The notes below the pieces were generated by a model. It ran no database searches and was not told the origin of the DNA. It saw nothing but the letters and a program-made list of their open reading frames with translations. A DNA stretch of 64,000 bases from Candidatus Poribacteria bacterium (GTDB lineage: Bacteria; Poribacteria; WGA-4E; PCPOR2b): positions 137,332 to 201,331 of the forward strand of contig JAPPKS010000029.1 of the NCBI GenBank assembly GCA_028819845.1, read 5' to 3'. Shown here piece by piece: positions 21,735 through 22,220 of the stretch. A program made the translations under genes and the position numbers. How positions within the stretch are numbered: the stretch's first letter is position 1; each line of letters begins with the position of its first letter.

Positions 21735-22220
21735 ATGCCGCGAAGAAACAAAGTCCTCAACATCGGTGACAATGCGCCGCTGTTCACCTTGCAATCCGCT
21801 CAAAGAGAGGATGTTAGTCTCGCATCGTATCGCAATAGGCGGCACGTCATTTTAGCCTTTTTCCGAGGCACATGGTGACCTAATAGCCGCCGCCAGTTAG
21901 GCGATTTACAAACTCACTTGAATGAATATGTCAGATTTGGCGCCGCAGCCATCGCGGTCGCCGGGCAGTGGCCTCGAGAAGTTCGCCGTTATGCTCAGAG
22001 GCACGGCATCGCCTTTCCGTTACTCATTGATAAGCACCGGACCGTCATTAAAAGCTACGGCGTTTATCATTGGCTAGGACTCGACGCTTATAACATTGCA
22101 CGTCCCTCGACATTCATTGTTGATAAGGAGGGAATTATCCGATTCATTCATGTAGGCTCACACCAGTTTGACCTTCCTAAACATGCCAGTCTCATCGCAT
22201 GTGTAGAATCCTTGGAATGA
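21735..22220 (+). CDS. Peroxiredoxin-like selenoprotein (in-frame TGA read as selenocysteine)
   Basis: Reading from the ATG at 21735 gives 161 residues with one in-frame TGA at 21876-21878 (position 48). Sequence on both sides is a thioredoxin-fold AhpC/TSA-type protein: N-I-G-D-N-A-P-L-F-T-L before, F-F-R-G-T-W-[TGA]-P-N-S-R-R-Q-L across, and P-S-T-F-I-V-D-K-E-G-I-I-R after. Relatives carry W-C-P-x-C-R-R-Q-L, so the TGA sits exactly at the reactive cysteine and the resolving position is serine. A hairpin fitting a bacterial SECIS follows. The ORF stays open for 113 further codons with intact family features, arguing against decay. There is no strong SD at the ATG. A nonsense pseudogene is the alternative. 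Confidence 0.8.
21879..21903 (+). promoter_or_regulatory. Candidate bacterial SECIS element
   Basis: Directly after the TGA, the RNA can form a hairpin CGCC (21891-21894), loop AGUUA, GGCG (21900-21903). The apical loop begins 16 nt after the UGA and has G as its second base, the geometry known for SelB-recognised elements inside coding sequence. An alternative 5-bp stem CCTAA/TTAGG (21879-21883/21897-21901) is mutually exclusive with it. Confidence 0.6.

Follow-up and report, generated by a model that had tools for sequence, protein, structure and literature searches.

A putative one-selenocysteine UxxS protein of predicted peroxiredoxin fold in Poribacteria

Selenoproteins of the AhpC/TSA type that carry a UxxS motif have already been catalogued, both under pfam13911 (PMC9312934) and under cd02970 (PMC13188914). 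Within the thioredoxin fold, the active site of ArsC is CxxS, which places it in the 'Cxxc' class, and peroxiredoxins have lost the N-terminal thioredoxin cysteine (TxxC) and carry arginine in place of the cis-proline (PMC2757866). The published bSECIS model describes a hairpin with a loop of 3-9 nt, a G within the first two loop bases, an upper stem of 4-16 bp, a spacing of 16-37 nt, and a minimum free energy (MFE) of -7.5 kcal/mol or below (PMC13188914).

Here we analyse one gene within a 64,000-nucleotide stretch of a Poribacteria genome (the whole stretch is referred to as the window, and the genome as the source genome). Poribacteria are a sponge-symbiont lineage, and the literature searched yielded no description of their selenoproteome. 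Enrichment of selA and selB in sponge symbionts is on record, with no selenoproteins named in the relevant passages of that report (PMC5649159). Based on (i) the exchange of a conserved UGA with Cys, (ii) purifying selection on both sides of this codon, (iii) the presence of the selenocysteine machinery, (iv) a constrained hairpin, and (v) evidence from the protein fold, the gene almost certainly encodes a SelB-decoded selenoprotein. We assign a probability of roughly 0.9 to the full explanation, in which SelB decodes selenocysteine (Sec) at UGA48 of a protein with a peroxiredoxin fold and a thioredoxin/glutathione peroxidase (GPx)-type site, most likely a one-Sec reductase.

The gene and its predicted active site

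The features of the gene are collected in Table 1. A single AhpC/TSA-type frame, containing one internal TGA and closed by its own TGA at 22218-22220, encodes the product MPRRNKVLNIGDNAPLFTL...AFFRGTW-U-PNSRRQLGDLQ...RPSTFIVDKEGIIRF... Readthrough of the internal TGA gives a product that Pfam AhpC-TSA (PF00578) matches over residues 10-137 with an E-value of 1.2e-28. A preliminary description of the locus had proposed a protein-like frame on either side of one TGA, located between FFRGTW and PNSRRQL, of which ORF calling would report only the C-terminal part; the Pfam match spans both sides, the frame has its TGA at exactly this place, and the standard ORF listing gives only a C-terminal piece of 100 aa starting at TTG 21918.

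Table 1. Positions of the gene, its key residues and the putative recoding element in the window
Feature	Position	Strand	Basis
Predicted selenoprotein gene, 161 aa, AhpC/TSA (peroxiredoxin fold), UGA48 as Sec, UGA stop	21735..22220	+	Pfam match; full-length orthologs 58-73% identical; dN/dS
In-frame UGA (codon 48), predicted to be read as selenocysteine	21876..21878	+	TGA in 70/71 ortholog loci; aligns with Cys of CxxC relatives
Ser51, replacing the second Cys of the UxxC/CxxC motif	21885..21887	+	AGY Ser in 67/67 distinct orthologs; Cys in other UGA relatives
Gln78-Trp79-Pro80, invariant	21966..21974	+	66/66 distinct orthologs; after the beta strand following helix 1
Arg123-Pro124, with Pro at the thioredoxin cis-Pro position (position of the peroxiredoxin catalytic Arg)	22101..22106	+	Invariant in orthologs; AhpE alignment
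Putative bSECIS upper hairpin: CGCC 21891-21894 / GGCG 21900-21903, loop AGUUA 21895-21899, G at 21896	21888..21905	+	Folding; synonymous constraint

The close named relatives are Poribacteria metagenome-assembled genomes, and in the genome collection about 67 genomes belonging to the same order encode orthologs, which align over their whole length. Ser51 is encoded exclusively by AGY, and the second Cys at +3 is absent throughout; no Cys is conserved among the orthologs, and 38 of the 67 contain no Cys at all. Invariant residues include R44, T46, W47, N50, S51, R52, R53, Q54, Q78, W79, R81, E82, H112, Y119, N120, R123, P124, H143, Q144, and D146. Near the C-terminus, His, Gln, and Asp of an HQFD motif (H143-Q-F-D146, window 22161-22172) belong to this set, and the motif is kept as HQMD in a CxxC relative (G193). 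To our knowledge, this motif lies outside the usual peroxiredoxin signature.

The AlphaFold2 model (pLDDT 93.3, pTM 0.90) finds its best PDB fold matches in Bcp4 and the one-Cys peroxiredoxin AhpE (TM about 0.87-0.91). The protein shares its overall fold and a single chalcogen nucleophile with these AhpE/Bcp peroxiredoxins (PF00578), but differs from them at the catalytic positions: when the sequence is aligned with that of AhpE, U48 corresponds to the Thr of TxxC, Ser51 to the peroxidatic Cys, and Pro124 to the catalytic Arg. The peroxiredoxin signature PxxxTxxC/TxxU, with the nucleophile at its second position, is absent (U stands at the Thr, Ser at the Cys), as is the catalytic Arg at the cis-Pro position, where Pro is invariant. 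The TGA had been described beforehand as falling on the peroxiredoxin catalytic cysteine, which is correct with respect to CxxC/UxxC Prx-like relatives but not with respect to AhpE. Given that Sec48 occupies the position of the N-terminal Cys, Ser the peroxidatic position, and Pro the position of Arg, the protein is predicted to combine a peroxiredoxin fold with a one-Sec site of the thioredoxin/ArsC/GPx type.

Profile alignment with glutathione peroxidases (hhalign, probability 96%) places U48 opposite the catalytic Cys and Ser51 opposite the Thr that comes after it. The protein resembles GPx (UxxT) in the +3 hydroxyl residue and in its presumed single-Sec chemistry, and differs from GPx in yielding no match to PF00255 at E<=1. 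While Gln78 and Trp79, candidate members of a Gln/Trp/Asn tetrad, are invariant, the register of the alignment with GPx is ambiguous at Gln78, which we hypothesize to be a functional analogue of the active-site Gln of GPx.

In the proposed mechanism, translation would be initiated at ATG 21735. The hairpin, which lies 12-25 nt beyond UGA48, would bring in a SelB-GTP-Sec-tRNA(Sec) complex that inserts selenocysteine at this codon, and translation would run on until it stops at UGA 22218. The product, of 161 aa, would adopt an AhpE/Bcp4-like peroxiredoxin fold in which helix 1 carries the only Sec at its N-terminal end (U-P-N-S) and an invariant Pro lies opposite. Its selenolate, which Ser51 may help to hold, would attack a hydroperoxide (or disulfide), and the resulting selenenic acid or selenenyl-sulfide would be resolved by an external thiol. 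Because the orthologs have no conserved Cys, resolution is expected to come from an outside thiol or a small molecule. The protein probably reduces hydroperoxides or disulfides with its one Sec and needs an external thiol.

The most serious competing explanation retains the same selenoprotein but assigns it a different chemistry, namely that of a monothiol-type reductase of disulfides or mixed disulfides (e.g. deglutathionylating), or of another ArsC-like UxxS reductase with a single nucleophile, rather than that of a hydroperoxide reductase. The AhpC/TSA fold also serves thiol-disulfide reductases, the catalytic Thr and Arg of peroxiredoxins are not conserved, and among the NCBIfam models searched, none of which passes its cut-off, the best sub-cut-off match is ResA. 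Moreover, UxxS together with Pro at the cis-Pro position is the arrangement of the 'Cxxc' class, as in CxxS of ArsC (PMC2757866). ArsC-like UxxS selenoproteins are alike in motif, thioredoxin-class fold, and single nucleophile, but differ in Pfam family and fold subclass. Given that the nearest solved folds are those of the peroxidases AhpE and Bcp, and that UxxT of GPx aligns with UxxS, we consider the monothiol chemistry a tenable but less favoured alternative.

A constrained hairpin downstream of the UGA codon

The distance from the UGA is 12 nt to the stem of the putative bSECIS and 16 nt to its loop. The hairpin had previously been described with a 5-nt loop, G as the second loop base, and a start 16 nt after the UGA; the hairpin, loop, and G are present, but the distance given is that to the loop and not to the stem. 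In the window sequence, folding predicts the lowest free energy for an alternative register, which pairs 21888-21891 with 21900-21903 around an 8-nt loop. With its 5-nt AGUUA loop, 4 bp, and 16 nt spacing, the hairpin fits the geometry of the published bSECIS model, and its energy over 33 nt (-7.4 kcal/mol, z -1.7) is borderline with respect to the published limit. The surrounding 61-nt fold reaches -10.3 kcal/mol (z -0.7), and thermodynamic support from the window sequence alone is modest; in some orthologs the MFE is -12.0 kcal/mol. Covariation across the orthologs is not significant, which is a genuine weak point in the case for the hairpin.

Codon choice across the orthologs marks the same region. 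Codons 51-55, which contain the loop and the 5' arm, are under stronger synonymous constraint than any other contiguous stretch of the gene: Gln54 is CAG in 67 of 67 (CAG makes up 52% of Gln codons elsewhere in the gene), Leu55 is TTR in 67 of 67 (24% of Leu codons elsewhere), Ser is restricted to AGY, and Arg is CGY with one CGA at each of the Arg codons. A comparison of 75 segments along the gene with their synonymous recodings gave the greatest relative stability for the segment that opens with codon 51 (mean z -1.33, against a background over all segments of mean z -0.13, sd 0.45). Separately, unusually low synonymous diversity (entropy ratio about 0.2) is observed at Pro2 and Leu8 (codons 2 and 8; window 21738-21758), which is perhaps a translation-initiation signal. 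A codon-usage scan of the window for further recoded UGAs gave no discrimination.

It is conceivable, though improbable, that the hairpin is constrained without being a SECIS, in which case the conserved codons would represent another signal and Sec would be decoded via a different downstream structure. Covariation in the hairpin across orthologs did not exceed that of shuffles (201/500), the stem register varies between families, and the 61-nt fold is unremarkable. Against this, the constraint is strongest precisely at the 5' arm and the predicted loop (CAG UUR), at least five of six pairs are formed in either a tetraloop or a pentaloop register by 54 of 56 distinct sequences, and the geometry agrees with the published bSECIS model.

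Conservation of the UGA codon and the selenocysteine machinery

Among the 71 ortholog loci, a few of which represent the same locus from two collections, the only departure from TGA at codon 48 is a TGT (Cys) in one genome (G046), where it lies in the same context as TGA in the other orthologs (FFRGTWCPNSRRQL). The preliminary description had supposed that relatives carry Cys at this codon, and had named a different disrupting mutation in close relatives as evidence to the contrary; Cys is found both in the G046 ortholog and in the CPNC motif of G193, and codon 48 shows no disruption other than TGA. In the tree, the Cys form sits within the Sec forms, and its neighbour is a genome from the same genus that carries TGA; the Cys form is therefore most simply read as a Sec-to-Cys change. 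This ortholog (L094) retains the full 6-bp hairpin despite its TGT, and SelB is still encoded in its genome; the change is apparently recent, with the SECIS-like element left as a vestige.

Median pairwise dN/dS is 0.11 before the UGA and 0.08 after it, which argues that both halves are made as protein. While ORF callers give the C-terminal piece only, termination at the UGA, leaving either a pseudogene or the 100 aa from TTG 21918 alone, is hardly credible given that the UGA is kept in 70 loci and several families with dN/dS of about 0.1 on both sides, and that the C-terminal fragment would lack two parts of the fold, its first strand and its redox residue.

The preliminary description had further proposed a search for selA, selB, selC, and selD, and held that absence of selB or selC would count against a selenoprotein; all four genes are present in the source genome. 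Genes for selA (C21:7622-8719, E=8.6e-158), selB (C21 around 5644, a 648-aa frame), and tRNA-Sec (C21:5473-5562, scoring 77.5 bits where the gathering score is 47, anticodon TCA, i.e. UCA) lie adjacent to one another on one strand. The selD gene (L171, G000:C10:184709-185632) contains one in-frame TGA of its own, suggesting that the selenophosphate synthetase is probably itself a selenoprotein. SelB is present in 77 of the 85 genomes of the phylum.

UGA is weak as a stop signal when C comes next, and codon 48 always stands in a UGA-CC context; even so, reading of this UGA as another amino acid, by genome-wide reassignment or by near-cognate readthrough as Trp or Cys, is very unlikely in view of the termination of the same gene at UGA in the source genome, the full Sec machinery encoded there, the redox Cys at that position in relatives, and the constraint on the SECIS-like element.

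Relatives and significance for Poribacteria

A UxxC Prx-like gene is likewise present in most of the order's Poribacteria genomes. The UxxC Prx-like thiol:disulfide oxidoreductase selenoproteins (PF00578) are homologous to the UxxS protein and share with it the motif R-G-x-W/F-U-P, but the UxxS protein forms a distinct clade with an invariant Ser for the second Cys and no conserved Cys. In a degenerate DNA pattern search of 387 genomes, AGY Ser was limited to the Poribacteria orthologs among the matches listed, and the non-orthologs among them were of the UxxC type; in the genomes searched, G193 is the closest relative from beyond the phylum. Three other AhpC/TSA frames with a TGA at a redox position are found in the source genome (L115, L116, and L117, on C35, C22, and C10), comprising a TxxU Bcp-type peroxiredoxin, a UxxC ResA-like protein, and a UxxC Prx-like protein; the last (L117) has the motif FYRGQFUPFC and, at about 479 aa, includes a long extension at its C-terminus. 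In four genomes, two UxxC Prx-like TGA genes lie within about 1.3 kb of each other (G013:C12, G017:C47, G022:C140, and G051:C88), which suggests local duplication of selenoprotein genes. None of eight tested window neighbours recurred beside the gene in the ortholog loci, many of whose flanks extend only about 0.5-1.5 kb (the positive control gave 72 hits), and genomic context therefore offers no clue to function.

Ser in place of the resolving Cys had been regarded as unusual, and it is, but it has precedents in the catalogued UxxS AhpC/TSA proteins (PMC9312934, PMC13188914). The Poribacteria protein resembles these in its AhpC/TSA-type fold label and in the single Sec of its UxxS motif, and is set apart from them by profile score, with a strong match to PF00578 but only 15.2 bits to PF13911 (cut-off 27). 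Given that this score lies below the cut-off, and that no NCBIfam cut-off was passed, the protein may belong to a subfamily separate from the catalogued one. We lean, by a narrow balance, towards an undescribed one-Sec subfamily typical of one Poribacteria order, in which a peroxiredoxin fold carries a GPx-like UxxS site, the peroxiredoxin catalytic positions and the CxxC Cys have been lost, and the protein is often free of Cys.

In dozens of genomes of sponge symbionts, annotation pipelines would miss the half of this protein that holds its active site. Members with one Sec and no Cys would provide a clean system for establishing what a single selenium does in a peroxiredoxin fold, and the natural TGA-to-TGT revertant would provide a matched Sec/Cys pair for kinetics. 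For sponge symbionts, in which selA and selB are enriched, the UxxS protein would represent a concrete, conserved selenoprotein.
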